A program made the translations under genes and the position numbers. This document shows, in pieces, positions 662-42,635 of a DNA stretch of 43,549 bases. The stretch is from a virus. The stretch spans positions 1 to 43,549 of the IMG/VR virus record IMGVR_UViG_3300030060_006148; one strand, written 5' to 3'. The notes beneath the pieces were generated by a model, which searched no databases, was not told the DNA's origin, and saw only the letters and a program-made list of their open reading frames with translations. The first letter of the stretch is position 1. Every line of letters begins with the position of its first letter.

Positions 662-1129
662 TTAGAAGATTCCTTCAAGAGCACCACCTACAGTTTTACC
701 TAAAAATGATCCGGCCATTGAACCCACTGGTCCGAGTCCTGGTATGAATGATCCTGCAACTCCTCCTAATAAACCTAACCCTGAACTAAGCATTCCTGAA
801 CTGCCACCACCTCCTCCTCCTGATCCTCCACTTAAGCTCTGTAATTCTTCTAGTTGTTGGAGTTTATTTTCATTCGCTTGTAAAGCTCCAGCATTAGCAA
901 TTATTGATGCATCGGTAATTGCGTTTCCTGTTGCATATTCTCCAGTTATACCAGTGTAATCTGGACTTTTAGCTTTTATTGATTTATAAACACTTGGAAG
1001 TGTAGATAGTCCTGCAGCTTTTGAGAATCCACCTGGCTGTACGTTAAACGTAGGATCTTCACTGCGATATGCATATCCCCCGCGATACCCGGTATATGGA
1101 TTACTTACGTAACTAAAACTTCTAGCCAT
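662..1129 (-). CDS. Gly-rich protein with glycine-zipper C-terminus (putative virion protein)
   Basis: 155 residues. The N-terminus is rich in Tyr, Gly and Ser. A poly-glycine linker (SGGSGGGGGGSSG, about residues 99-111) leads into a hydrophobic C-terminal tail with repeated GxxxG spacing (GLLGGVAGSFIPGLGPVGSM and on to the end). Such glycine zippers pack helices in membranes and occur in membrane-active or ejection proteins of phages. No enzyme motif is seen. It sits in the minus-strand block after the 127-aa gene with a short gap. Function in virion or membrane is inference. Confidence 0.7.
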   Translation of the reverse strand: MARSFSYVSNPYTGYRGGYAYRSEDPTFNVQPGGFSKAAGLSTLPSVYKSIKAKSPDYTGITGEYATGNAITDASIIANAGALQANENKLQQLEELQSLSGGSGGGGGGSSGMLSSGLGLLGGVAGSFIPGLGPVGSMAGSFLGKTVGGALEGIF

Positions 1130-1155
1130 TTACTTTCTTCTTACCTTTATCCATT

Positions 1156-1539
1156 TTACAAACTTGAAAATAAATTACTTCCACTAAATTCAGAAGGTAC
1201 TGTAATGCCAAGGTCCAGGTCTAGTGGAGTAAAGTCTGTTACAACATCTGAATTTCCATTGTCAAATAATCCTTTTATACCTGAACCTATTGTCGATTGA
1301 ACGTAAGGATTGCTTAGAAAACCAAGCCCATCTCTCCCATCTCTTCCGTCTCTTGCTCTATTCAATGCACCTGTAGCCATGTCTATTGCATTTTGAGTTT
1401 CAGCGCCAATTGCATCTGCTGCTGCTGAAGCTAGATACCTATCTTGGAAACTATCAGCTGCAGCAAAACGCTGTGCCATTTCCCCGTAAAAATCATCTCC
1501 ATCAAGAAAGTCTGTTATGTCTCCAACTGGTACGTACAT
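1156..1539 (-). CDS. Unknown 127-aa protein with short collagen-like GRD repeat
   Basis: Starts MYVPVGDITDFLDGDDFYGE. The middle carries a short GRDGRDGLG repeat (about residues 64-72), resembling the collagen-like spacers of phage virion proteins. The C-terminus is acidic and hydrophobic. The start codon overlaps the stop of the upstream 406-aa gene by one base (1539), so the two are probably translationally coupled. No family recognised; a structural role is inferred from position. Confidence 0.7.
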   Translation of the reverse strand: MYVPVGDITDFLDGDDFYGEMAQRFAAADSFQDRYLASAAADAIGAETQNAIDMATGALNRARDGRDGRDGLGFLSNPYVQSTIGSGIKGLFDNGNSDVVTDFTPLDLDLGITVPSEFSGSNLFSSL

Positions 1540-2759
1540 TAGAAACCTACCTCAGATGATTCAGGATTTAATGCCATTGTTCGTGGCATCTGAGCGTAAG
1601 CAGCCTGATTACGATTACGCCTTTCATTCTCAATTATATTACCTACAACTGCACCGGCTGCATAACCTCCAAACCCTCTCATTAAACCTTGCCTAATTGG
1701 AGTTTTTGTCCTGACACCAGAAGCAGTACCAGCAATAGCTGTGACAGTGGGAAGTATTGTTGTTGCAACAGGTAGACTGCGCCCAAGGAATTGAACTTCA
1801 GGTCCGTGAATGCCTTCAGTAGTGGCTTTAAGTACACCAGTAGGCAACGTAATATTTCCATCATCAAATGGATTTAGGTCCGCTTTTTTATCATACTTAA
1901 ATGCTTTATATCTCATGTAATCGCCCTTGCTGACATCTGGCCTTACTTTTTTAAATTCATCCCAAGGAAGCAATTGTCCAGTCCTACCAAGGATATATTT
2001 AGCAGCTACTTCACCAATGATGTTTGAAGTTTTTGTTGGGTCTTCCTGACTTGGCATAGCAGCGGTGTATCCATCAGTTCCTCCCATAAAGTTTGTAAGC
2101 CCCATACCTGCGTTAATCGCTAATGCTGCGGGTGCAGTTAACGTTGCTACTGCTCCAGGTGCGTACCTTCTTTTGGTGTAGTACTGCTGTTTAGTTTCTG
2201 GATCGAATTGCTTGCTGTACCCAGCTCTTGTCCTTTTAGTCTTCTCATCGAGTATCCCCATATCTACTGCAGTCTTCTGAGTTGACGGATCAACCCGTAC
2301 TCTGCGATCTACCTTTGTGTTTGTGCCTGGTCGCTGTACGTAGTCCTGTTTATAGAGATTGGGATTGGCTTGGCTCACTGCAGCTTCAGCACCCACCGTG
2401 GCTACAGCCTGAGGAGCGTTCAGCAGCCACCAGATGCTTCGTGTCTTGTCATTGATAATGTCATTACCTAAACGCCCTAGCAGCTGCCCCGCTTTGCCTG
2501 ACTTTGTATCCTTCAACCCCATACCCATCGCACGTCGGGCTTCACGATCTTCTGGATTCGAAGTTCCTGTTAGATCTCGAAGAGTCGTAATTGTTGGGTT
2601 GGTCCCAATCATCTGACTAAATTTTTGGGAGTCCGTAGGATCTTTTCCTTTAGCCTTACGTGCTTCAAAGTATGCTTCACGGAAGTCTTCACTTCCTTCA
2701 TCCATTGAACCCCTGAAGCCTGTTAGGAACTCATTTAACTTTGAGTTTAAATCTGCCAT
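1539..2759 (-). CDS. Unknown 406-aa protein with Ala/Gly-rich hydrophobic segments
   Basis: The N-terminal 110 residues are charged. Several hydrophobic Ala/Gly-rich stretches follow: around 112-130 (WWLLNAPQAVATVGAEAAV), 200-225 (GAVATLTAPAALAINAGMG), and near the C-terminus (PVATTILPTVTAIAGTASG, GFGGYAAGAVVGNIIENERR). A soluble head with membrane-inserting helices is typical of internal virion or DNA-ejection proteins, but no homologue is recognised. Start and stop overlap both neighbours by one base at 2759 and 1539, indicating one operon. Confidence 0.7.
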   Translation of the reverse strand: MADLNSKLNEFLTGFRGSMDEGSEDFREAYFEARKAKGKDPTDSQKFSQMIGTNPTITTLRDLTGTSNPEDREARRAMGMGLKDTKSGKAGQLLGRLGNDIINDKTRSIWWLLNAPQAVATVGAEAAVSQANPNLYKQDYVQRPGTNTKVDRRVRVDPSTQKTAVDMGILDEKTKRTRAGYSKQFDPETKQQYYTKRRYAPGAVATLTAPAALAINAGMGLTNFMGGTDGYTAAMPSQEDPTKTSNIIGEVAAKYILGRTGQLLPWDEFKKVRPDVSKGDYMRYKAFKYDKKADLNPFDDGNITLPTGVLKATTEGIHGPEVQFLGRSLPVATTILPTVTAIAGTASGVRTKTPIRQGLMRGFGGYAAGAVVGNIIENERRNRNQAAYAQMPRTMALNPESSEVGF

Positions 2760-3346
2760 TACGCCAATCCATTCTGCTGAAGGAAGAAGTCCACAGGTGA
2801 GTATCCTGCAAGTCCGTGCTGAGCAAGTATCTGTTGCTCTAATGCCCTTCGGTCTTGATCCATAAGTTTTTCATACGGAGTTGTCCCTCCTCCTTTAACT
2901 CTTGCGAGTTGATCTCCAATACCAGCACCTACCATATATCCGGCTTGGCTTCCTCCCATATCAGCTAATAAAGCCATTGTTTGTCCAGAGTTTGGCATAA
3001 ACTTTTTAGTTAACCCTCTGGCAGCTTTACCTCCAAGTGCGGACCCACCAAAATCAGTCGCAAAATATAATCCCTTATCTACTAAATCTCCCGGCGCCAT
3101 TACCGCACCAATTCCAGCCATTAATGCATCTGGACCATAGAACGCTGCAAGTTCTCCTAAACGTCCTCCAGCCATTCTGCTGGTATTACCTACAACGTCT
3201 GCAACTGTTTTTCCACTCATTCCTACACCAGGTAACATCCTGGTAGGTGCCATTGCAGGGCCTTGCAGTTTTTGACCGATACCAAACAACCTTTGAATTG
3301 CTGGAGTTGCTTTAGAAATTAATCGTGTTGCTGAACCAACCATCAT
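2759..3346 (-). CDS. Gly/Ala-rich 195-aa protein (putative virion or ejection protein)
   Basis: Begins MMVGSATRLISKATPAIQRL; a start one codon later is equally possible. Most of the protein is Gly/Ala/Met-rich and hydrophobic, with many small-xxx-small motifs (for example YMVGAGIGDQLA, DFGGSALGGKAARGL). The C-terminus is Gln-rich. It overlaps the upstream 105-aa gene by 4 bases and the downstream gene by one, so the block is one transcript. Composition matches membrane-penetrating virion proteins; no specific family can be named. Confidence 0.7.
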   Translation of the reverse strand: MMVGSATRLISKATPAIQRLFGIGQKLQGPAMAPTRMLPGVGMSGKTVADVVGNTSRMAGGRLGELAAFYGPDALMAGIGAVMAPGDLVDKGLYFATDFGGSALGGKAARGLTKKFMPNSGQTMALLADMGGSQAGYMVGAGIGDQLARVKGGGTTPYEKLMDQDRRALEQQILAQHGLAGYSPVDFFLQQNGLA

Positions 3347-3660
3347 CCTTGCTCCTTAGATTTCTGTTGTTCGGCTTGCGCCATCATCATCTGTCTTTCT
3401 CTAATCTGATCAGGATGATTACCCGACATTGTCATTTTAGCTTGATTAAACTCAAAGCCTTCATTTGACTGATTAAACTGATCGTTCCATTGACCGATAC
3501 TTGCAGCGACTTGCGGATTGTTAATGATATCTAATGCAAACTCTCCCCTTTCTCCAGCCATCCTGGGCCTGTCACCTTGAAAGGTTTGAGGAGTTTCCTC
3601 ACGTTCTCTTCTGATACGTGTGCCGTTTTGTATTACTGCTGGATCGTATTGGTTTTTCAT
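3343..3660 (-). CDS. Unknown 105-aa polar protein
   Basis: Highly polar: Arg/Glu-rich N-terminal half, Asn/Gln-rich middle, and a Met/Gln/Lys-rich C-terminal helix (RERQMMMAQAEQQKSKEQG). No membrane segment and no recognised domain. It lies two bases after the 611-aa gene and overlaps the next gene by 4 bases. It could be a small virion, scaffold-like or assembly protein; this is guesswork from context. Confidence 0.65.
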   Translation of the reverse strand: MKNQYDPAVIQNGTRIRREREETPQTFQGDRPRMAGERGEFALDIINNPQVAASIGQWNDQFNQSNEGFEFNQAKMTMSGNHPDQIRERQMMMAQAEQQKSKEQG

Positions 3661-3662
3661 GA

Positions 3663-5498
3663 TCAGGCTCTCCGTGGAAGTCTTGTCTGTAAAGCAGAGG
3701 GCGGAAGCCGACTGATAATTTCACTTGCCTGCTCAGCACGTCTCCGTTGTGCATCTTCTGCACGTTTACGAGCAACGTAAGTTCTTACTTGTTTATCCCG
3801 TAATTTACCCATCTCATCCCGATACTCAGCTTGTCTTATTGGATTTGGACCTTGACCACGCTTTCTTATATTCTCTTTCAGCTGAGCAATACGAGTTTCT
3901 CTTGTGTCAATCTCATCTCTACCAAAGTACATGCCACGACCGGTTGGTTTTTCTTCGCCCCTCACTGCACCGATATAAGGCTTTTCACCTCTTCTCTTTA
4001 ACTCCGCAACAATGCCTAACTCTTTTAAACCTTTTGTCTGTGGAGATCCCATAGGCCTTTCTGCACCCGCTTCTCTTACTTTAATTTTGCTTCCTTTTGG
4101 AATCTTTGCTAGTGGAGCAGCTCCGCCTTGATTATTCAGTGCCTCAGCTGCGTCATACGCCACTTGAGGCGCCCCCAATGGACTTGGTCCTTGCAGTGGT
4201 GTTCTTTGAGCATAAGCACCAGACTGTTGCTCATTTAATCCTCTTTGTTTCGCTACTTCTAACTGCACCAAGGCATTCGCAAACCGTTCCTCATCACCTG
4301 ATGTTTTTAACAAAAGGTTGGCAACTTCTTCTGCGCCTGGATTTATTGATGGCCGTGGCTGAGGCTTACCTTCTTCCCCTCGCACTCTCAAAGGTATTCT
4401 ATTCTGTTTAGCTTGGTTAACAATGTAATTTACTACTTCCTCATATTCACCTAATGATCTAATGTTACTTCCGACCTGGGGCATTCCACTATATGCTGGA
4501 TTCTGACTAAGCTCCTTGAGCTTGTTCGCCATATTTGTTGTTTCCAGCGTTATATCTACTTGTGGGTAATCTCCGAATGAACTTCCGGTTTCTGAAGGGC
4601 GGTAATTCGGTTGTCTGGCAATTGCCCAATCCGCAGCACTCATTGGAGCATTAAGCCCATCTCTTGTGCCCATATTGTTTGGTGAAGCTGCCTGCATCAA
4701 CATATGTGGCGGAATTTCTGGCCCTTGCGCTGCAATAGGCGCTCCAGTGCGTGGATCTGTATATACAGTCTCACCTGGAGTTAATCTTGTGTCTGCATAA
4801 CCCATAATTGGGTCTTGTACTAAGAACTTACTAGCCTCTTCTCCTTTAAGAGCACCTGAGTTTCCTAATTGCGCGATTTGTCCAGTTCTTTCTAATGTTT
4901 CCATCCCTGATCTGGTCATATCTCCTCGAAGCATCCTTTCTGCTTCAATTTGAGCGGCAATATTGCTGTATGCCTGACGTAATGGGTTTTGATTGGCTTG
5001 ATCTCTCCTCACCATCTCTGAAACTAGGGATGCTTCAGCAGCACGGTTAGGAGTAATGGAATCTTCTAATCTTCCTTCGACATCTGCAGCTCCTGGGAAG
5101 GCATCGTAGCCATATTGAGCTGTTCCTTTTTGTAATTGAGCTAAAGCGTCTACTACTGCAGACTTTGGAGCCATTGTCACTGGTTCACCACGTAATTCTT
5201 CAAATGTTTCCCTTCTGATTACTCCTGTATCCTCATCTTCGGTAAATCCACGGTCATCTGCCCTATATGTTTGCAGTTCATCCTGCATTTCACCAAACGG
5301 ATCTACAACTGCCTTATCAAGCAGGTCTGTATCCGGCATATAAGCTTGTGTTCCTTGATTGCCCAACCTTCGCTGCTCATCTGCAAATAAAGCAGCTTCT
5401 TCAGCACGTTTATTTTGTCTTTCTTTGATACGTTGAGCTTTTCTATCGCCAACAATTAATTCAGCGCCACGAATTAAATCATTTGTAAGAGGATTCAC
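3663..5498 (-). CDS. Large (611 aa) mostly disordered protein
   Basis: The longest gene of the minus block. The first 60 residues are a charged helix (AQRIKERQNKRAEEAALFADEQRR). The middle is rich in Pro, Gly, Gln and Asn with little predicted order. The C-terminal 120 residues are very Arg/Lys-rich (IREARIAQLKENIRKRGQG-like composition, ending LPRRA). The basic tail could bind DNA inside the capsid. No known domain is visible. It starts 46 bases after the stop of the 434-aa gene. Confidence 0.7.
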   Translation of the reverse strand: MNPLTNDLIRGAELIVGDRKAQRIKERQNKRAEEAALFADEQRRLGNQGTQAYMPDTDLLDKAVVDPFGEMQDELQTYRADDRGFTEDEDTGVIRRETFEELRGEPVTMAPKSAVVDALAQLQKGTAQYGYDAFPGAADVEGRLEDSITPNRAAEASLVSEMVRRDQANQNPLRQAYSNIAAQIEAERMLRGDMTRSGMETLERTGQIAQLGNSGALKGEEASKFLVQDPIMGYADTRLTPGETVYTDPRTGAPIAAQGPEIPPHMLMQAASPNNMGTRDGLNAPMSAADWAIARQPNYRPSETGSSFGDYPQVDITLETTNMANKLKELSQNPAYSGMPQVGSNIRSLGEYEEVVNYIVNQAKQNRIPLRVRGEEGKPQPRPSINPGAEEVANLLLKTSGDEERFANALVQLEVAKQRGLNEQQSGAYAQRTPLQGPSPLGAPQVAYDAAEALNNQGGAAPLAKIPKGSKIKVREAGAERPMGSPQTKGLKELGIVAELKRRGEKPYIGAVRGEEKPTGRGMYFGRDEIDTRETRIAQLKENIRKRGQGPNPIRQAEYRDEMGKLRDKQVRTYVARKRAEDAQRRRAEQASEIISRLPPSALQTRLPRRA

Positions 5499-5544
5499 AG
5501 TATCTACTATATAAGCCTAAATCTATTGTAGATATATTTAAATA

Positions 5545-6849
5545 TCAACCAAAATAGTTTTGAGCATACTGTTCAGATTCGGGATCATAACCAAATGGGT
5601 CAAATTCCTTATTCATCTCAGCAGGTGTTGCCATATTTTCTACAAAATTAGCTGTTGACACATCCATATACTTTGTTGTCTTACCATCAGTTGCATCAAA
5701 TCCTTCGCCTGCTCCAAGCATTGGATTCTGAGCAGTAGCAGATGGTGCTGTTACGTTTTTAATGCTGTTATTCAATAATTCCTGTGCTTTTAACTGTGAT
5801 ACTTCTTCCCCACTGAGTTCAGACCCTAAATCTGCAGGATCATTCGACTTTAAGAACTCATTAGTGATGGCATATTTTTTATCACCTGCAGTTATGTAGC
5901 CCCTTTGCATTTCTCTGTTCTTTAATCCCTGCAGACTGCTATCTGCATCTAAGAATGCACCCCTTCTCATCATTTCAGCGTTTCTATAAGGCACCATATA
6001 GTCTGTTTTACCGTCAATTTGTGGGCGCTCTACAGTTTTTTTAGTTTGAGTTTCAGGTTTTGCGGCTTTTCTCATGGCATTACGCTCTCTTACCATCTTT
6101 TTAATGTCTTCTGTACTTCTTTGGCCCTTTTCTGCGTCGGATAATTCGTAATCACTGTCGATAACTACCTCATCTAGGGCTTCACCACGCTGTAATCTGT
6201 TAATTTCTTCTGGTGTTCTACCTCCGTAGAGCATATCTTCCATATCATCTTCATTTGCCAGTCTTGATAGAGGAACATCTGCCTCTCTTATACCCATTCC
6301 TGGGACTAAATCACTAGCAGCACGGCCATACATTGCTAAATTCTGTGCACCACCTAGGAAAGAAAGCATCTCTTCTGGTGAAGGTTGGCGCATACTTAGT
6401 TGAGTACCTAAAGCGCCAGTTTTATTAGGATCAGGTGTAAGTCTAGGCGGATTTTGCTTTTCTTCTTTTGGATATAGCCTTGCAATATCTGCATCTACTT
6501 TTCTGTGAACCTCAGACAACCTCTGCATTCGAGGACTAATTGCATATGAACCAGGAGTAGCAGGAGGATATAACTTAGGGTCTAGATTTGCAGGTTTAAG
6601 ATTTGCAGGTTTAGCTGGTGCATATCTAGAATCAGTAAGCGCCGCCATTCCACCAGCAGGATCTATACCTGCTTGATAGGCACTATATAACGTTGGAGGT
6701 ATGGCCATTACAGCAGCTGCCGGGTAAGCCAATGCACCTAATCTTTGTCCTATAGCGTTTGTACCAAGTTGCTTTAACGCATCTTTATAAATATAATTTC
6801 CCATCTTTATGGGATCGTTAAAAAATCCCTGAGTTACTTGAGGAGCCAT
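5545..6849 (-). CDS. Unknown 434-aa protein, first gene of minus-strand block
   Basis: Residues about 38-65 are hydrophobic (LGALAYPAAAVMAIPPTLYS), the rest polar, with Pro-rich and acidic stretches and a Met/Thr/Asn-rich end (SEQYAQNYFG). No family recognised. It is the promoter-proximal gene of the leftward block, so expression would be driven from the 6850-7696 control region. Composition matches the downstream genes, suggesting the block works together, probably in the particle. Confidence 0.7.
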   Translation of the reverse strand: MAPQVTQGFFNDPIKMGNYIYKDALKQLGTNAIGQRLGALAYPAAAVMAIPPTLYSAYQAGIDPAGGMAALTDSRYAPAKPANLKPANLDPKLYPPATPGSYAISPRMQRLSEVHRKVDADIARLYPKEEKQNPPRLTPDPNKTGALGTQLSMRQPSPEEMLSFLGGAQNLAMYGRAASDLVPGMGIREADVPLSRLANEDDMEDMLYGGRTPEEINRLQRGEALDEVVIDSDYELSDAEKGQRSTEDIKKMVRERNAMRKAAKPETQTKKTVERPQIDGKTDYMVPYRNAEMMRRGAFLDADSSLQGLKNREMQRGYITAGDKKYAITNEFLKSNDPADLGSELSGEEVSQLKAQELLNNSIKNVTAPSATAQNPMLGAGEGFDATDGKTTKYMDVSTANFVENMATPAEMNKEFDPFGYDPESEQYAQNYFG

Positions 6850-17154: not shown

Positions 17155-17236
17155 GCCCAGGTGGCGGAATCGGTAGACGCATCGGACTTAAAATCCGCTG
17201 ACTTATGTCGTGCGAGTTCAAGTCTCGTTCTGGGTA
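17155..17236 (+). tRNA. tRNA-Leu (anticodon TAA)
   Basis: Cloverleaf folds: acceptor GCCCAGG with TCTGGGT (G-T at the first pair), long class II variable arm, T-arm GCGAG-TTCAAGT-CTCGT, anticodon loop centred on TAA (…ACTTAAAAT…). CCA is not encoded. No intron, although cyanobacterial trnL(UAA) often carries a group I intron. Reads UUA codons, frequent in AT-rich genes. Sits directly before talC. Confidence 0.9.
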
Positions 17237-17279
17237 TCAACTAACTAGCATTATTATGATGCAAAAACATTCAACTATC

Positions 17280-17924
17280 ATGAAAATATTTCTCGATACT
17301 GCTGACGTAGAAGAAATCAAAGCTTGCAGAGAATATGCTTTGATTGACGGCGTGACTACTAACCCCACACTTATCAGGCAATCAGGTAAAACTCCTGATG
17401 ACGTATATAACGCACTGGCTGATCTTGGCTTAAAAGATATCAGCATGGAAGTTTCAGGAACTCCTGAAGAGATGTATGACGAGGCTATTCGTCTGTCAGA
17501 CCTCTTTGGATCTGTAACTACGATCAAACTTCCTATGACAAAAGAAGGACTTCAAGTCTGTGCTGTGCTCAACAAAGAATTAGTAAGGACTAACGTTACT
17601 CTTGTCTTCAATGCTGCTCAAGCACTACTTGCTGCAAGAGCAGGAGCAACTTATGTGTCTCCTTTCGTAGGACGTATTGATGACCAAGGATACGCAGGGC
17701 TAGAAGTTGTAAGAAGCATCGCTAGTTTGTTCTGCAATATGGGTTGCAGTACTGAAGTACTTGCAGCATCTATTCGTACACCACATCGAGCTGTGCGATC
17801 TTTCTTCAACGGCGCAAGCATTGTCACTATGCCACCTAAGGTTTTCAACTCTATGTATGACCATGTACTTACAGAGAAAGGACTAGAGATATTTGAAAAC
17901 GATATTAAAGCAATGACTACTTAA
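17280..17924 (+). CDS. talC: Transaldolase-like protein TalC (FSA type)
   Basis: 214 residues, the short length of the TalC/fructose-6-phosphate aldolase family. Motifs: MKIFLDTADVEEIK at the start, GVTTNPTL (24-31), the Schiff-base lysine K83 in TIKLPMTKEG, and YVSPFVGRIDD. Transaldolase moves a dihydroxyacetone unit between sugar phosphates in the pentose phosphate pathway. Cyanophages carry it to raise NADPH and ribose supply. The frame can extend upstream into the tRNA, so ATG 17280 is the sensible start. Between two tRNA genes. Confidence 0.93.
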   Translation: MKIFLDTADVEEIKACREYALIDGVTTNPTLIRQSGKTPDDVYNALADLGLKDISMEVSGTPEEMYDEAIRLSDLFGSVTTIKLPMTKEGLQVCAVLNKELVRTNVTLVFNAAQALLAARAGATYVSPFVGRIDDQGYAGLEVVRSIASLFCNMGCSTEVLAASIRTPHRAVRSFFNGASIVTMPPKVFNSMYDHVLTEKGLEIFENDIKAMTT

Positions 17925-17926
17925 CT

Positions 17927-18000
17927 GGTTCCGTAGCTCAGTGGAACAGAGCAGCGCTCTTCTAAAGCGTCGGTCGTTGGTTCGAATCCAACCGGAATCG
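17927..18000 (+). tRNA. tRNA-Arg (anticodon TCT)
   Basis: Acceptor GGTTCCG pairs with CGGAATC; D-stem GCTC/GAGC; anticodon stem GCGCT/AGCGT around loop CTTCTAA (anticodon TCT); T-arm GTTGG-TTCGAAT-CCAAC. Reads AGA/AGG. Begins two bases after the talC stop. Confidence 0.93.
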
Positions 18001-18009
18001 TTAATTATT

Positions 18010-26467: not shown

Positions 26468-26818
26468 ATGATGAAATCCTATCACTTATATGTCTTTACC
26501 CAAGACAACTGTGCTCCATGTAATCGACTAAAAGAGCATGTTAATACTTTGACAGAATCTGAAAAACTTGAGTTGGATTTTGTACCACTTAAGGCACCCA
26601 ATGGCTCACCTACAGCGCTTGCGGAAGAACTTAAAGTTGATCTATCACCAACTCTTGTAGTCGTACATGAAACAGTTGCATGCGATATTGATCCTGAAAC
26701 AGAATATGAATTCTGTGCACACGAAGAAGAGAGTGTAGAACGCTTTGTTGGTGCCAACAGCATCATTGAACATCTACAAGCAACACTTGATGCATACACT
26801 TACGCACACCCTGAATGA
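26468..26818 (+). CDS. Thioredoxin-like protein
   Basis: 116 residues. YHLYVFTQDNCAPCNRLKEH is the first strand plus a CAPC redox motif; LSPTLVVVHE contains the cis-proline segment that faces the active site. An acidic insert (CDIDPETEYEFCAHEEESVE) follows and may change partner choice. It would re-reduce ribonucleotide reductase, encoded 1.7 kb downstream. Confidence 0.85.
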   Translation: MMKSYHLYVFTQDNCAPCNRLKEHVNTLTESEKLELDFVPLKAPNGSPTALAEELKVDLSPTLVVVHETVACDIDPETEYEFCAHEEESVERFVGANSIIEHLQATLDAYTYAHPE

Positions 26819-27496: not shown

Positions 27497-27692
27497 AAGA
27501 GAAGAGTTTATCTTTGATTTAGCTCTTCATATGCTCAACAAAACATCTAAAGCGGGGATCTTTGCCCATGCCGTAGATCGCATCTGTGATTTGCTTGATA
27601 GAAACACAGATGAGCAATTGATTCGAATGGCTCCTGACAATTTAATAGTTCAGAAAAAGAAAAGAAAAAAGGGAAAGGCTAAAGGATTTTAA
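27483..27692 (+). CDS. 69-aa protein with Lys-rich tail
   Basis: MTEHEREEFIFDLALHMLNK and more helices, ending in a basic tail (QKKKRKKGKAKGF). Likely binds nucleic acid through the tail. Stop overlaps the next ATG (TAATG). Confidence 0.6.
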   Translation: MTEHEREEFIFDLALHMLNKTSKAGIFAHAVDRICDLLDRNTDEQLIRMAPDNLIVQKKKRKKGKAKGF

Positions 27693-27853
27693 TGACAGCA
27701 GTTAAATATTTACTCCTTATCGGAGAATTAGAAGGCTGCTCTGCTCATTTAAAAGACCTAGAAGAATTCGAAGACAGAGCGGCTATTAAAGCGCTGTGCT
27801 CAAAATACTACAAACTATATTTCAGTACTAAAAAACATGAGCAAAAAAGCTAA
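27692..27853 (+). CDS. 53-aa micro-protein upstream of IF-1
   Basis: MTAVKYLLLIGELEGCSAHL then DLEEFEDRAAIKALCSKYYK. Small, mixed charge. Overlaps the IF-1 start by 17 bases, so expression of the two is likely coupled. No family recognised. Confidence 0.55.
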   Translation: MTAVKYLLLIGELEGCSAHLKDLEEFEDRAAIKALCSKYYKLYFSTKKHEQKS

Positions 27854-28064
27854 TGTAATACAAGCAAAGGGCACGATATTTAAAGAAAGTGGCAATGGAT
27901 ATTTCAATGTTGAATTGGAAGAACCAACTGGTCACAAATGTCTCTGCCGTGCTTCCGGTAAATTAATTACAAGAAAGATCCAACTACTAGTTGGTGATCG
28001 AGTAACAGTTGAATTAAGTCCCTACGATTTAGATCGTGGCCGTATTACCCTCCGTGAAAAATAA
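27837..28064 (+). CDS. infA: Translation initiation factor IF-1 homologue
   Basis: 75 residues, the normal IF-1 length. AKGTIFKESGNGYFNVELEE, the SGKL-x-x-x-KI block (RASGKLITRKIQLLVGDRVT) and VELSPYDLDRGRITLREK match the bacterial IF-1 OB-fold along its length, including the SPYDL-x-x-GRI signature. IF-1 sits in the ribosomal A site and assists IF-2 and IF-3 in start selection. The host must have its own copy, so the phage gene would boost or bias initiation. Followed directly by mazG. Confidence 0.9.
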   Translation: MSKKANVIQAKGTIFKESGNGYFNVELEEPTGHKCLCRASGKLITRKIQLLVGDRVTVELSPYDLDRGRITLREK

Positions 28065-28505
28065 ATGACACTTCTTGAACAAGCAGTTGTGTTTCGTAAA
28101 ATCTTTGGACAAGAGATTTTGCCAAACATTTCTAGATACGGTTTCATTAAAAAGAAACTATGGGACATGCAGAAAGATCTTATTCGGGAAGAAGGTAAAG
28201 AGCTTCTTGAAGCGATCGATGAATGCTACGCAGATCCTGAAAATGTTACTACTAGAATGAATCTCATTAAAGAGCTTTCAGATTTGGTATTTGTTTGTTA
28301 TCAGTTTGCAGCTGCATTTAATATAGATCTTGATAAAGCAATGAACCTCGTTTATGAGAGTAATCTAAGTAAACTAGATACACAAGGTAATCCGATTTAC
28401 AGAGAAGATGGCAAGGTTTTAAAAGGTCCAAACTACAAACCACCTTCGCTTGAAGACTGTATCCCTGAATTAACACCTACTCACTACGACACAAATGGAA
28501 AGTAA
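28065..28505 (+). CDS. mazG: MazG-like nucleotide pyrophosphohydrolase
   Basis: 146 residues. IREEGKELLEAID is the Glu-rich metal-binding helix; ELSDLVFVCYQFAAAFNIDL carries the second part (ExxD) and DKAMNLVYESNLSKLD the end of the fold. Cyanophage MazG was proposed to lower ppGpp or clean nucleotide pools; in vitro it prefers dNTPs/NTPs. Last 11 bases overlap the RNR gene. Confidence 0.88.
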   Translation: MTLLEQAVVFRKIFGQEILPNISRYGFIKKKLWDMQKDLIREEGKELLEAIDECYADPENVTTRMNLIKELSDLVFVCYQFAAAFNIDLDKAMNLVYESNLSKLDTQGNPIYREDGKVLKGPNYKPPSLEDCIPELTPTHYDTNGK

Positions 28506-29934
28506 TAAAGCAATTGCCCGCACAGGTCGGGTTCAAAACTGGATCGATAATCCCACCAGTCGATTACCAGTTTCATGCACGGTCTACGTGGTGGAAGATT
28601 CGATGACAGGCCCTAATGGAATTGAAGCATCTTGGAGATTTGTCAGCCACGCTCTTCGCTTTGGAGCGGGAGTTGCGGTCCACCTCTATAAACTCAGAGC
28701 TGCAGGCATTGATAACGGCAAAGGACTCGTTGCAAGTGGCCCGGTCAGCTTTGGCAAGATATATAGCTGCCTCAACGAACAGCTCCGTAGAGGAGGTGTT
28801 TACAAAAATGGAGCAGTTGTACTGCACTTAGATATCAACCACCCAGATATTCTTGAGTTTGTCAATTGCCCTAGATCAGAGCTTCCCTGGGCTAAGCGTT
28901 GCATCAACTTGACTATGCCTCTATGGCAAAGCACCAGCGATGAAGTCAAAGGCGAAATTCTCAAAGGGATTGCTAGAGGTGATATCTGGTTAGCCAAGAT
29001 CCGTCACGATCAAGATGGTCAAAGAATTCACGCAAATGTGTGTTTAGAAGTCTTCCTGCGTAGCCGTGGCACTTGTTTACTTGAGCACATCAATGTCTCT
29101 GGGTGTTCTCTTGAAGAGTTACCACAAGCCTTTACTGATGGAATGCAAGAACTAGTAAATCTGCATAGTAAAACAGGTGTGGAGAGTACAGGTGAATACC
29201 TAACTCAAGAAGAAGATCGGCAAGTTGGTTTAGGCATCCTTGGCTTAGCGAATCTGCTAGCTCTTGAGGGTGTTACTTACTCACAATTCGCTGATGCACT
29301 TGAGTTTAACAACCACGAACAGTGGGAAATGATGGTGACTCAACCTGCACTTAATATAGTGAAAGCACTTCAAAAAGGAATTAACTCAGCAGCTGCTGTA
29401 GCACGTGAGGCCAATATGGACCGTGCGTTTGCTATTGCTCCTACTGCTAGTTGCTCCTATCGCTATACAGACCGAGCAGGCTATACAACTACCCCCGAAA
29501 TCGCACCGCCGATCGGGCGTAATGTTGATAGGGACAGCTCTACATTTGGTGTTGAAACATTTGACTACGGCAATGTTGAAACAGCTGAAGAGGTAGGCTT
29601 TGATGTCTATAAAAGAGTTGTTGATGGGATCATGGAAATGATTAATCAAACAGGTCTTGCTCATGGCTATAGTTACAACACATGGTCGGACGTTGTTTCA
29701 TACACCAACGAATTTATTGAAGAGTGGATCAACTCTCCCCAAACCAGTATGTATTACTCTCTGCAAGTAATGCAAAATACTCAAGCCAAAGATGATGCAT
29801 TAGCTGCGCTCGATGGCGACTTTGGAACTATGTTCGGGTTTGAAGAGTGGGATAGCAAAGGAATGCAAGATATGGATAAAGAGATTGATGAACTTTTCAA
29901 CGGCCCTGAAAATTGCGTTGGCTGCGCTGAGTAA
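28495..29934 (+). CDS. Ribonucleotide reductase class I alpha subunit (compact)
   Basis: 479 residues, shorter than host NrdA. C28 (PVSC) and C204 (VSGC) fit the redox pair, N181-C183-E185 (NVCLE) the thiyl-radical site, PTASCS the substrate loop, and C474/C477 (CVGC) the C-terminal dithiol. No ATP-cone at the N-terminus. This matches the compact cyanophage alpha type formerly called class II and later paired with a small beta subunit encoded next door. Makes dNDPs for phage DNA synthesis. Confidence 0.88.
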   Translation: MESNKAIARTGRVQNWIDNPTSRLPVSCTVYVVEDSMTGPNGIEASWRFVSHALRFGAGVAVHLYKLRAAGIDNGKGLVASGPVSFGKIYSCLNEQLRRGGVYKNGAVVLHLDINHPDILEFVNCPRSELPWAKRCINLTMPLWQSTSDEVKGEILKGIARGDIWLAKIRHDQDGQRIHANVCLEVFLRSRGTCLLEHINVSGCSLEELPQAFTDGMQELVNLHSKTGVESTGEYLTQEEDRQVGLGILGLANLLALEGVTYSQFADALEFNNHEQWEMMVTQPALNIVKALQKGINSAAAVAREANMDRAFAIAPTASCSYRYTDRAGYTTTPEIAPPIGRNVDRDSSTFGVETFDYGNVETAEEVGFDVYKRVVDGIMEMINQTGLAHGYSYNTWSDVVSYTNEFIEEWINSPQTSMYYSLQVMQNTQAKDDALAALDGDFGTMFGFEEWDSKGMQDMDKEIDELFNGPENCVGCAE

Positions 29935-29951: not shown

Positions 29952-30683
29952 ATGAAAGCAGAAACTCCTTACATTCATTTGCATGAGCGCAAGCGTACCT
30001 GGACTCCAGTACAGATTGACGCCGGTACTCTCCTCGAAGGTGGTGAAGAAGTCATTCAACGTGCATTAGCACTGAGATGCCTTGAGATCCCTGTAGGTGA
30101 CTTCATTAGTGAAGCTATGAAAGGTGATCTCCCGGATGTCAAAGGTTGCAAAGAACTACTTATCTCAAACGTTGAGGATGAAGACAAGCATGACATTGCA
30201 CTTAATTATGCAGCACGAGCCCACAAGGTACCAGCTCAGTTTGAGCGAGAAGCTGCCCATATATGCAAAACATGGCTGGAACTGGATAGGCACCCTGTTC
30301 TCAAAGCTGTTGTACTTGAGAGATCCGTGTTCTTTGTCCTCCTCCCGATCTTCCGATTCTTAGGTGACACAGGATTGCGTACAACTAGTGCAGATATCTC
30401 ACGTGACGAACAGACTCATGTCGCGGCTAACACTTTGGTTTGCGAGCAAATGGGGCTTAAGTCTGATAAGCAGATGAATGCTCTTCGTCGTGCCACGATT
30501 GCCTGGGTACTGCAACCTCTGCAAGCAAAACACGAAAGTCGTTACCTTTCAGGCAATTTCTGGATGACTAATTCAGATCACCTGTATTCCAAAGGTAAAG
30601 CAGCAGGTCTTATTGAAACACGCAGCTCCAGAATGCCTGCGTTTTTTGAGACAAACAACATTAATCTTCCTCAATACGCTTAA
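29952..30683 (+). CDS. Ribonucleotide reductase beta-like subunit (compact)
   Basis: 243 residues, much smaller than standard NrdB. Two ExxH pairs (E77-H80 in VEDEDKH; E153-H156 in DEQTH) fit the dinuclear metal site of a ferritin-like four-helix bundle, and E123 (VLERS) is a further candidate ligand. I cannot locate an obvious radical tyrosine near the site, so a non-tyrosyl subclass is possible. Encoded 17 bases after the alpha subunit. Confidence 0.78.
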   Translation: MKAETPYIHLHERKRTWTPVQIDAGTLLEGGEEVIQRALALRCLEIPVGDFISEAMKGDLPDVKGCKELLISNVEDEDKHDIALNYAARAHKVPAQFEREAAHICKTWLELDRHPVLKAVVLERSVFFVLLPIFRFLGDTGLRTTSADISRDEQTHVAANTLVCEQMGLKSDKQMNALRRATIAWVLQPLQAKHESRYLSGNFWMTNSDHLYSKGKAAGLIETRSSRMPAFFETNNINLPQYA

Positions 30684-30940: not shown

Positions 30941-31031
30941 TCTAATAGCTAGACTGCAGTTGATTGTAGCTGGCTACGGATCACAATTAACAATGAAACA
31001 ATTACGTAAACTAATTGCTAAATATGCATGA
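30915..31031 (+). CDS. 38-aa basic micro-protein
   Basis: MAKSRTKADLIARLQLIVAG then MKQLRKLIAKYA. Overlaps both neighbours (26 and 8 bases). Helical, basic. No family recognised. Confidence 0.5.
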   Translation: MAKSRTKADLIARLQLIVAGYGSQLTMKQLRKLIAKYA

Positions 31032-31674
31032 AGCTAAACTTGTATGGATAACACCTGACGCTGAAAAGCTAATTGGTAAAATAGCAAGAGTATCAAACCC
31101 AAATAACGAGGATAATCCAAATGTCGAAGGACTGCTCAAATATCTCATCAAAAACGGACACTGGTCTCCCTTTGAGATGGCAAGTCTCTGCGTCGAGATC
31201 CAGACTACAAGAGCTATTAGCCCGCAAATTCTCAGACACAGATCTTTCTCATTTCAAGAGTTCTCACAGCGCTATGCAGTAGCGATGGATCTGGACCTAC
31301 CGCATTTACGTCGTCAGGACACAACAAACAGACAAAACTCCATAGACGATTTAAATGTGGCTGTGCAAGACCGGTTGCAGCACAGTATAAATAAACACTT
31401 CGAGGAATCTAAAGCTCTCTATAACAAGCTGCTAGGTCACGGAGTTGCTAAAGAATGTGCTCGATCTGTACTCCCTTTAAATACAACTACAAGGTTGTAT
31501 ATGTCAGGCACAATCCGCAGCTGGCTGCATTACTGCGACTTAAGAGCTTGGCATGGTACGCAATGGGAACACACAAAGATCGCTCTCAATTGTATGGAGA
31601 TCTTAAAAGAAAATGTTCCTACAGTTGCAAATGCCATGTGGCCCACGGATAGCCAATCTGGGGATGTAGTATGA
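31024..31674 (+). CDS. thyX: Flavin-dependent thymidylate synthase ThyX
   Basis: 216 residues. The signature RHRxxSxxxxSxRY is present at 71-84 (RHRSFSFQEFSQRY). The C-terminal half has RLYMSGTIRSWLHYCDLRA and HGTQWEH, typical of the FAD/dUMP site. Methylates dUMP to dTMP using FADH2. ATG 31024 preferred; an in-frame TTG at 31015 is also open. Works with RNR and MazG in dNTP supply. Confidence 0.93.
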   Translation: MHEAKLVWITPDAEKLIGKIARVSNPNNEDNPNVEGLLKYLIKNGHWSPFEMASLCVEIQTTRAISPQILRHRSFSFQEFSQRYAVAMDLDLPHLRRQDTTNRQNSIDDLNVAVQDRLQHSINKHFEESKALYNKLLGHGVAKECARSVLPLNTTTRLYMSGTIRSWLHYCDLRAWHGTQWEHTKIALNCMEILKENVPTVANAMWPTDSQSGDVV

Positions 31675-39934: not shown

Positions 39935-40489
39935 ATGCCAAGTCCTAAAGGAGATCCAACATATATTAAGAACAAAGATCGATTCTTTCTGACACTTGCT
40001 AAAACAATTGCACAAGCATCCTCGCATCCTATTGCACCCGGAGGTTGTGTCCTTGTTCGGGATAGAGAAGTTATCGGAGATGGCCGTAGCTTTTATACAG
40101 CTTCTCAAGTAGAAGTCGATTGTCTGTCACATGCAATTGCAACTGCAGCAAAGCGAGGTACTCCTACACCTGGAGCTGTTGTATATACAACACGCTATCC
40201 GTTTTCACATTGCGTCTTCCAGTGCTATGTTATGGGCATTAGAAACATCTATTTCTTGTCCCACGATTGGGAGACACGCTATAAAGACGAATTTAAACGA
40301 GCAGCAAGATTAGCCAGAGAATTAGCTATATCAATTGAGCCCATATCTTTAGACGATCAATACTCACTTAATTCCTATGATGACCCAAAAAGCGACCCGA
40401 AAAATTTCACGGGAAGAAAAGATTTCGCACCAGATGAATTTGATGTCGCAGATCCAGAAACAACCAATGACAACTCAACTATTATTTGA
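39935..40489 (+). CDS. dCMP deaminase-like protein missing catalytic and zinc residues
   Basis: 184 residues. Lines up with phage dCMP deaminase: GGCVLVRDREVIGDGRSFY, then DCLSHAIATAAKRG where active enzymes have HAExxAIxxAAxxG, then YTTRYPFSHCVFQCYVMGI where they have TxxPCPxC...GI. So the catalytic HAE is D62-C63-L64 and the first Cys of PCxxC is F90; only C93 remains. A pseudo-deaminase or regulator is likely. C-terminal 45 residues are acidic and disordered. Confidence 0.72.
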   Translation: MPSPKGDPTYIKNKDRFFLTLAKTIAQASSHPIAPGGCVLVRDREVIGDGRSFYTASQVEVDCLSHAIATAAKRGTPTPGAVVYTTRYPFSHCVFQCYVMGIRNIYFLSHDWETRYKDEFKRAARLARELAISIEPISLDDQYSLNSYDDPKSDPKNFTGRKDFAPDEFDVADPETTNDNSTII

Positions 40490-40991
40490 CCTTGAATCTA
40501 CCGGCCTTCTCAGGCGTGGTTCCAGTATTCACTGTATTGTTACTCGCAATGGTGATGATGGTAATACTTACGTCTATGATCATAAACCTGAGCGAGAACT
40601 CATTCAGGGAGTAATGCAATTAGAAAATGCTGATGTGCTTATTGGGCATAACATCATTTCATTTGACATTCCACTTCTCAAAGAACAGTTTCCTGCCTTC
40701 AATCCTGTCGGCACAGTGATGGATACTCTTGTTCTTAGCAGACTATTTTATCCGCACATTCAAGATAGAGATCACGAACGGCAGCCTGCAGGCATGCCTC
40801 TTCGCTTGTACGGGCGTCATTCCCTTGAAGCCTGGGGTCACAGACTTAAATGCTTTAAAGGGGATTTTGGTAAGCACGACGGAGCATGGGATAAATATAC
40901 TCCTGAGATGCTTGACTATTGCATTCAAGATACAGCTGTAACTATGAAACTTTGGGCACTTATGCAACGCAGGATGAATGATTATGTCTGA
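40467..40991 (+). CDS. 3'-5' exonuclease, detached from DNA polymerase
   Basis: 174 residues. DnaQ-like motifs: LLFDLESTG (ExoI, D8/E10), IGHNIISFDIPLL (ExoII), and YCIQDTAVTMKLW (ExoIII, YxxxD). Matches the N-terminal proofreading half of T7-type PolA, here as its own gene with the polymerase 340 bases downstream. ATG 40467 overlaps the preceding gene by 23 bases. Confidence 0.88.
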   Translation: MTTQLLFDLESTGLLRRGSSIHCIVTRNGDDGNTYVYDHKPERELIQGVMQLENADVLIGHNIISFDIPLLKEQFPAFNPVGTVMDTLVLSRLFYPHIQDRDHERQPAGMPLRLYGRHSLEAWGHRLKCFKGDFGKHDGAWDKYTPEMLDYCIQDTAVTMKLWALMQRRMNDYV

Positions 40992-41112
40992 TGAATTTTA
41001 TGATTGGCTAGACTCATGCCCAGTAATGTGGCTAAGAGACAGCTTTACTAATAACTGGTACACCTATCGCTTTTATTCAGATGAAGAAAACAACGGAGAG
41101 AACAATGCCTGA
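40984..41112 (+). CDS. 42-aa acidic aromatic micro-protein
   Basis: MSDEFYDWLDSCPVMWLRDS then FTNNWYTYRFYSDEENNGEN. Overlaps the exonuclease stop and the next gene start by 8 bases each. It lies between the exonuclease and polymerase and might help join them. No family recognised. Confidence 0.5.
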   Translation: MSDEFYDWLDSCPVMWLRDSFTNNWYTYRFYSDEENNGENNA

Positions 41113-41341
41113 AAAAAATGATCCTCTTACTCCAGAAGAAATTACCGAAGCTTCTGATCGTTTTTTCCCACTCTTTGACATTGTGCATAAACGTATGCCA
41201 AAAACTTCTTCTATTGAAGATACTCTCAAAGTTATGGAGAACGTAGCGAAGCTTGCTCAAAAGAGTCGGTCTGAAGAAAGAGAGAAGTCGATTAAAGAAA
41301 AATTTGGATTCAACAAAGCAATGGAGGTTGATGATGCTTGA
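41105..41341 (+). CDS. Unknown 78-aa protein between exonuclease and polymerase
   Basis: MPEKNDPLTPEEITEASDRF begins; ATG 41105 has GGAG upstream. Helical and charged (VMENVAKLAQKSRSEEREKS), ending AMEVDDA. Overlaps the polymerase start. Fits as a small polymerase-associated subunit; function not known. Confidence 0.58.
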   Translation: MPEKNDPLTPEEITEASDRFFPLFDIVHKRMPKTSSIEDTLKVMENVAKLAQKSRSEEREKSIKEKFGFNKAMEVDDA

Positions 41342-42635
41342 TTGTGTTTCTCTTGAAATGCGTATGGCGGAACTAATGGCTCAACAAGAGGCCAGTGGCT
41401 TTCGCTTTGATATGGATGCAGCGGTCCGTGTCAGATCTGAACTCTCAGCTGAGATGAATGATATCGAAGAGAAGCTTTTGACTAAATATAACTATGTTCC
41501 TGGCAAGGTTTTTACACCTAAGCGCAAGAATGCTAAAGAGGGCTACTTTGCTGGTGCCCCTATGACCAAGCTACTGCCATTCAATCCTACGAGTAGGCAG
41601 CATATTGCTTGGGCTCTTCAGCACTTTAGGGGTGCTCGTTTTATTAAAGTAACTGAGACAGGCAAACCAAAGGTTGATGAAGCTACTCTTTCAGAGATGA
41701 GAGATGTTGCACTTCAGCAAGACAACCAAGCACTGCACGATGATTGTGAAAGTTTTATTCGTTTGCTGACATTACAGAAGTGGTTGGGACAGTTATCAGA
41801 GGGTACCAATAGCTGGTTTAATACAATCGAAGATGATGGATGTATTCATCACACTTGCTCTTTAGCAACTATCAGCGGAAGAAACGCGCACCGATCTCCA
41901 AATTTGGGCCAGGTCGTTTCTGCACCTTGGGCACGACAACTATTTATTCCACATCCTGGAATGGTAATGGTTGGAGCTGATTTAGAAGGGCTCGAACTAA
42001 GGTGCCTAGGCCACTATCTCAGCGTTTATGACAATGGCAACTTTGCTGACGTTGTACTCAATGGTGATATACACCAGCAAAATGCTGATCGTGTTGGCTG
42101 TACTCGTAAAGAAGTCAAGACTATCACTTATGCTTTCATTTATGGGGCTGGTGACGCAAAGCTTGGCCACTCATTACATCCTGAGTACTCTGACGCACAG
42201 AAAAAATCTCTCGGCCAAGACTTAAGAAGAAAGTTTTTAGATGCTATTCCTGGATTGGAGCCTTTAATTAATGCCGTCAAACAACGAGTTCGTGGAGCTG
42301 GCCGCCTTACTGGTCTTGATAGGAGGCCTATTTTTTGTAGGGCTGAGCATAGTTCCTTAAACTTCCTCTTGCAAAGTGCGGGGGCGATTTTATCTAAGCG
42401 GTGGTGTGTCGTAGGTCAGGATCTTCTTGATGAGGCAGGCCTCACCTATAACACCGATTACACGCGCTGTGCATACGTACACGATGAAGTACAGCTCTCT
42501 GTAGTTCCATCTGAAGTAGAGCGAGTCAAGAGCTTATTAGAAGCTGCTGCTCCATTAGCAGGTGAATACTATAAGTTCAGAGTCCCTATTGCTGCTTCTG
42601 CAGACAGTGGAGACAATTGGGCTAATACACATTGA
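41334..42635 (+). CDS. Family A DNA polymerase, polymerase domain only
   Basis: 433 residues. Motif A GADLEGLELRCL (D216), motif B KTITYAFIYGAG (K262, Y266, Y270), motif C VHDEVQ (382-387). Position equivalent to E. coli Pol I 762 is Tyr (KTITY), as in T7 polymerase; that choice is linked with fast lytic phages. The exonuclease is a separate gene upstream. GGAGG at 41323-41327 supports ATG 41334 (an ATG one codon earlier is also present). Confidence 0.92.
   Translation: MLDCVSLEMRMAELMAQQEASGFRFDMDAAVRVRSELSAEMNDIEEKLLTKYNYVPGKVFTPKRKNAKEGYFAGAPMTKLLPFNPTSRQHIAWALQHFRGARFIKVTETGKPKVDEATLSEMRDVALQQDNQALHDDCESFIRLLTLQKWLGQLSEGTNSWFNTIEDDGCIHHTCSLATISGRNAHRSPNLGQVVSAPWARQLFIPHPGMVMVGADLEGLELRCLGHYLSVYDNGNFADVVLNGDIHQQNADRVGCTRKEVKTITYAFIYGAGDAKLGHSLHPEYSDAQKKSLGQDLRRKFLDAIPGLEPLINAVKQRVRGAGRLTGLDRRPIFCRAEHSSLNFLLQSAGAILSKRWCVVGQDLLDEAGLTYNTDYTRCAYVHDEVQLSVVPSEVERVKSLLEAAAPLAGEYYKFRVPIAASADSGDNWANTH

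Follow-up and report, generated by a model that had tools for sequence, protein, structure and literature searches.

Initiation factor IF1 occupies the A site of the 30S subunit, where it contacts S12 and helix 44, and Arg69 of the E. coli protein is required for 30S binding, while start-codon discrimination is credited mainly to IF3 (PMC4611024). E. coli IF1 also acts as an RNA chaperone and as an antiterminator (PMC3017892). An E. coli TG1 strain deleted for infA can be kept alive by a plasmid (PMC13030852). Among viruses, IF1 and IF3 have been reported in huge phages (PMC7162821). We found full-length IF-1 in Prevotella Lak phages, Sinorhizobium phage Phosso and uncultured phages of 484-595 kb. 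These proteins have 37-42% identity to the IF-1 described here, fall elsewhere in the tree and come from genomes of 469-595 kb with other hosts. In Bacteroides phages of 167-179 kb, an IF-1-like gene is annotated as hypothetical. Cyanophages are known for their photosynthesis and carbon genes; in the lineage described here, a translation factor is fixed like the replication genes. A literature search combining cyanophage with "translation initiation factor IF-1" found no paper. IF-1 is known from huge phages, and in the literature searched we found no mid-sized cyanophage with a host-type IF-1 among its core genes.

The IF-1 gene and its neighbourhood

The window, i.e., the whole stretch of DNA analysed, is a 43.5-kb (43,549 nucleotides) IMG/VR record classed as linear. 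It carries psbA, psbD, talC, a ribonucleotide reductase pair, thyX, a VapE-type helicase and a family A polymerase. The features around the IF-1 gene are as follows, with the evidence in brackets.

26468-26818, plus strand: thioredoxin-like gene lying upstream of IF-1 (synteny conserved in nearly all contigs; named from its CxxC-bearing sequence)
27692-27853, plus strand: 53-aa ORF directly upstream of IF-1 (sequence; relatives in only some contigs)
27837-28064, plus strand: IF-1 gene, 75 aa, ATG start and TAA stop (TIGR00008, PF01176, AF2 OB fold, lineage-wide presence)
27966-27983, plus strand: codons 44-49 (ITRKIQ) of IF-1, part of the loop between strands 3 and 4, TKFRIK in the host (alignment)
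28041-28055, plus strand: codons 69-73 (RITLR) of IF-1, in which R69 and R73 correspond to R65 and R69 of the E. coli protein (arginine alignment)
28065-28505, plus strand: MazG/PRA-PH-like nucleotide pyrophosphohydrolase (PF01503, 3.3e-7; PF03819, 1.2e-4; synteny)
28495-29934, plus strand: ribonucleotide reductase large subunit, overlapping MazG by 11 nt (PF02867, 3.9e-21)
29952-30683, plus strand: ribonucleotide reductase beta-like subunit of cyanopodovirus type (phrog_6799, 4.7e-100)
31015-31674, plus strand: thyX, in the same operon-like block (TIGR02170, 3.3e-48)

Positions 27837-28064 encode a complete IF-1. The protein scores 68.2 bits against NCBIfam TIGR00008 (infA; equivalog cut-off 61.15), with residues 4-73 aligned to positions 1-68 of the 69-position profile, and residues 8-73 match Pfam PF01176 (eIF-1a/IF-1) with an E-value of 2.4e-16. 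In a phmmer search of the PDB, all 12 matches are IF-1 (best 9.7e-17). The signature reads SPYDLDRGRI. The preliminary description had taken the 75-aa protein for IF-1 along its full length, with the motif SPYDL-x-x-GRI, and both the profile score above the cut-off and the signature bear this out. It had also proposed that failure to group with IF-1 in a phylogeny would speak against the assignment; the ORF groups with IF-1, in a clade supported at 100/99.

The predicted structure agrees with the family assignment. The single-sequence AF2 model had a pLDDT of only 56, and the model built from an alignment with 26 relatives was used in its place (mean pLDDT 84.4). It has the single S1-type OB fold of about 70 residues, i.e., a five-strand barrel with a short helix (41-45) between strands 3 and 4. 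In a Foldseek search of the PDB, the eleven top matches are IF-1s, free or in 30S complexes. They include T. thermophilus IF-1 (1hr0_W), and 30S-bound E. coli IF-1 (9fco_I) was matched with an rmsd of 0.8 over 71 columns.

The N-terminal OB domain of RsgA (YjeQ) was considered as a source of the gene. It shares the fold of the phage protein, is its second-best Pfam match (8.6e-8) and appears among the Foldseek matches (1u0l, 4a2i). However, it is weaker than IF-1 in all comparisons, and SPYDLxRGRI is the IF-1 signature. The circularly permuted GTPase domain typical of RsgA is absent; the protein stops after the OB fold and MazG comes next. As the host's own IF-1 has the same RsgA-like look, an RsgA-derived domain is ruled out.

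The 53-aa ORF, read to its stop at 27853, overlaps the IF-1 start by 17 nt, and the IF-1 stop directly abuts the MazG start (TAA followed by ATG). Hence, IF-1 is probably translated in a coupled manner within a nucleotide supply and replication operon. Judged from the gene arrangement, coupled translation within a polycistron would be a simpler reading than the short leaders proposed earlier. Farther downstream, DNA polymerase A consists of separate exonuclease and polymerase ORFs (window 40377-42635), as it does in two related contigs, G200 and G203.

Phage lineage and core-gene status

The window is a fragment from an uncultured marine cyanophage lineage with genomes of about 80 kb. No close isolate was found across the window, and the megablast matches listed fall in psbA and psbD, at 76-80%. 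The likely hosts are picocyanobacteria, as judged from psbA/psbD, talC and the kinship of IF-1 rather than from an isolate.

Related contigs of up to 106 kb share the IF-1/replication block. In one of these, G203, genes for a phrog_38 terminase, for a sigma factor and for virion proteins were identified as well. A search with Pfam Terminase_6N gave no terminase; the PHROG terminase turned up on a relative. The Synechococcus phage S-EIV1 (KJ410740) is the best isolate match for the terminase large subunit (55%) and for one virion protein (49%) of G203, a comparison that rests on G203 as the window fragment stops short of these genes. S-EIV1 also shares thyX, exonuclease and polymerase genes with the lineage at 33-49% and is its only isolated relative found, but it lacks IF-1, even under relaxed thresholds. 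One longer gene of S-EIV1 matches both the exonuclease and the polymerase ORF of the window. Two further features of these genomes were observed. Window positions 662-6849 form a minus-strand block, possibly virion-related, in which five proteins were scanned and gave no PHROG matches. In the 106-kb contig G200 (L223-L228), genes repeat about 81 kb apart with differences; the contig either wraps an ~81-kb genome or joins two variants.

IF-1 is a core gene of this lineage. Searching with IF-1 recovered about 60 contigs with identities of 76-100%, and the order trx-IF1-MazG-RNR-nrdB-thyX-ssb-exo-helicase is kept in every contig long enough to show it. With nrdB-like as an independent query, IF-1 was present in 43/43 contigs spanning the site. 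The gene is under strong purifying selection: the median pN/pS is 0.167 for IF-1, 0.136 for psbA and 0.190-0.354 for the eight other genes among the ten compared. These values serve for ranking only, as synonymous sites are near saturation; for vapE, the eleventh gene, there were no pairs that could be used. In one contig (L055, 2875-3103) the IF-1 frame is broken, through either an assembly error or decay of the copy.

The chance that IF-1 is a stray host gene or an assembly artefact is practically nil. Some IF-1-bearing "phage" records do resemble artefacts, e.g., Acinetobacter phage MD-2021a, in which truA and leuB are adjacent, and MT835508, which has an rpmJ-like ORF near infA. In the present lineage, however, phage synteny is constant in about 60 contigs and IF-1 occurs in all 43 covering contigs. 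Its identity to the host gene is 61%, hence there was no recent copy. Host contamination is ruled out by the fixed phage synteny, and no lineage contig without IF-1 at the site was seen.

The preliminary description called IF-1 unexpected here. This holds only in part: reports of IF1 in huge phages exist (PMC7162821), and relatives of IF-1 are encoded on at least 218 contigs of IMG/VR, some of which may not be real phages. Among the records collected, CAKLQH020000005 and MT835508 look bacterial, with truA and leuB as neighbours or an rpmJ-like ORF near infA.

Kinship with the host IF-1

Among cellular genes, infA of Prochlorococcus and Synechococcus comes closest, with 57-62% identity. Phage and host proteins share a two-residue insertion (P30 and residue 31) and the motif CLCRA-x-GKL, and in the phylogeny they form the single clade with 100/99 support. 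In the family that holds Prochlorococcus, which we take to be the Cyanobiaceae of GTDB, 80 of 81 genomes have exactly one IF-1 match, and this is divergent (60-67 bits), whereas IF-1 of most other cyanobacteria sampled scores about 98-131 bits. As the sole IF-1 in these genomes, the divergent subfamily very likely fulfils the essential cellular function of IF-1.

The genomic position of the host gene is unusual as well. It lies far from rpsM in 3/3 host genomes compared (G075 (L300), G037, G010), and one host genome has the order adk-rpmJ-rpsM with no infA between, whereas in two other cyanobacteria infA is located about 240-290 bases upstream of rpsM. The comparison thus exposes an odd fact about the host: in the Prochlorococcus/Synechococcus family, IF-1 is divergent and encoded away from the ribosomal operon, and its closest relatives are phage genes. 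At one locus (L076), the divergent infA adjoins a thioredoxin reductase-like gene, and a secY-adk-rpmJ-rpsM operon lacking infA was read in a host genome.

The trees do not settle the direction of transfer. An outgroup-rooted mixture-model tree nests the host genes among those of the phages, whereas the LG+G4 tree has the phages as one clade (85/91), and a single phage clade is not rejected by the AU test (p 0.355). The sole IF-1 of Prochlorococcus, Synechococcus and their kin might be of phage origin, if in their ancestor an infA from a phage took the place of the one in the ribosomal operon. The mixture-model nesting, the canonical-type N terminus that phages have and hosts lack, and the host operon without infA point this way, yet we regard the scenario as rather doubtful.

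Both sides also have traits of their own. The phage protein has an MSKKAN-like N-terminal extension, as in other bacterial IF-1s, and no tail, whereas the host-family protein starts with MIET and usually has a basic or R/G-rich tail. These derived traits on each side argue that the phage gene was not recently copied from present-day hosts.

Predicted role on the ribosome

R69 and R73, the counterparts of two C-terminal E. coli arginines that contact 16S rRNA, do not vary among the 56 phage copies (56/56) and are likewise invariant in host and other cyanobacterial IF-1. The phage protein probably is a working IF-1 fitted to picocyanobacterial ribosomes, which would keep or raise initiation on viral mRNAs (probability roughly 0.72). 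The bases of this reading are the sequence, the fold, the conserved 30S-contact arginines, core status and synteny, purifying selection and the kinship with host IF-1; ribosome binding, timing and benefit are inferred. The factor would be made in a polycistron with nucleotide-metabolism and replication genes. It would then sit in the A site of the host 30S subunit beside host IF2 and IF3, and may keep or raise initiation on viral mRNAs during shutdown of host gene expression. Such a role implies that translation initiation is under selection while the phage infects some of the most abundant photosynthetic cells, and the phage IF-1 is a small, testable protein.

The OB-fold protein could instead moonlight as an RNA chaperone or transcription antiterminator, melting RNA hairpins for the host RNA polymerase on phage operons. 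The chaperone and antitermination activity of E. coli IF1 (PMC3017892) gives a precedent, and the sigma factor in a lineage relative fits the use of host RNA polymerase. However, the residues needed on the ribosome are invariant and the family tracks the host ribosomal IF-1, and this role appears improbable.

The phage protein differs from the host form in the loop between strands 3 and 4. T45, R46 and K47 occur in 56/56 phage copies, and I44 and Q49 in nearly all; 36/36 host copies have T44, K45, F46, R47 and K49. After SGK, the loop reads I-T-R-K in the phage, R-K-N-Y in E. coli and T-K-F-R in the host, with R-K/R-N-F/Y as the canonical form. Hence, the rRNA contacts of the phage protein may differ from canonical and host ones. 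The basic loop, a common but non-defining IF-1 trait, is absent in the phage; as the only IF-1 of the host family also departs from R-K-N-Y, the loop does not decide family membership.

Going by these residues, the phage protein could act as an IF-1 in modified form, or as an inhibitory one. In a generalised form of the idea in the preliminary description, it might compete for the A site with host IF-1, change which mRNAs are started and favour phage over host mRNAs, in line with the fixed differences from the host form in loop 44-49 and at both ends, where the host R/G-rich tail is missing and the MSKKAN-like extension is present. We consider such competition unlikely, as the gene shows no association with tRNAs or with genes poor in Shine-Dalgarno (SD) sites, and IF1 is not known to choose mRNAs by SD.

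The counts behind this concern the proposal of the preliminary description, namely that IF-1, two phage tRNAs and mRNAs without SD sites form a module that shifts start-codon choice. Its parts are present in the window: both tRNAs were found, tRNA-Leu(UAA) at 17155-17236 and tRNA-Arg(UCU) at 17926-18001, and the lack of SD sites is broadly true, with an SD 4-mer at -20 to -4 before 8 of 44 genes (shuffled mean 4.2). The module itself was not supported. Nine stretches of two long IF-1-bearing contigs, among them a whole 106-kb contig, gave no tRNA, and tRNA-Leu(UAA) occurs in only 2/23 other loci scanned. S-EIV1 is even poorer in SD 4-mers (5/50; shuffled 5.6), and the podovirus S-RIP2 has them before 12/51 genes (shuffled 4.3). 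Both phages lack IF-1, so a scarcity of SD sites does not go together with IF-1, and with tRNAs missing from most relatives, the tRNAs and SD pattern of the window are no conserved module with IF-1. As partner translation genes, neither peptide deformylase nor bS21 was found in 19 records. In the window, the two tRNA genes flank talC (17155-18001); the listed start of the talC ORF overlaps a tRNA, and the family match begins 25 codons later.
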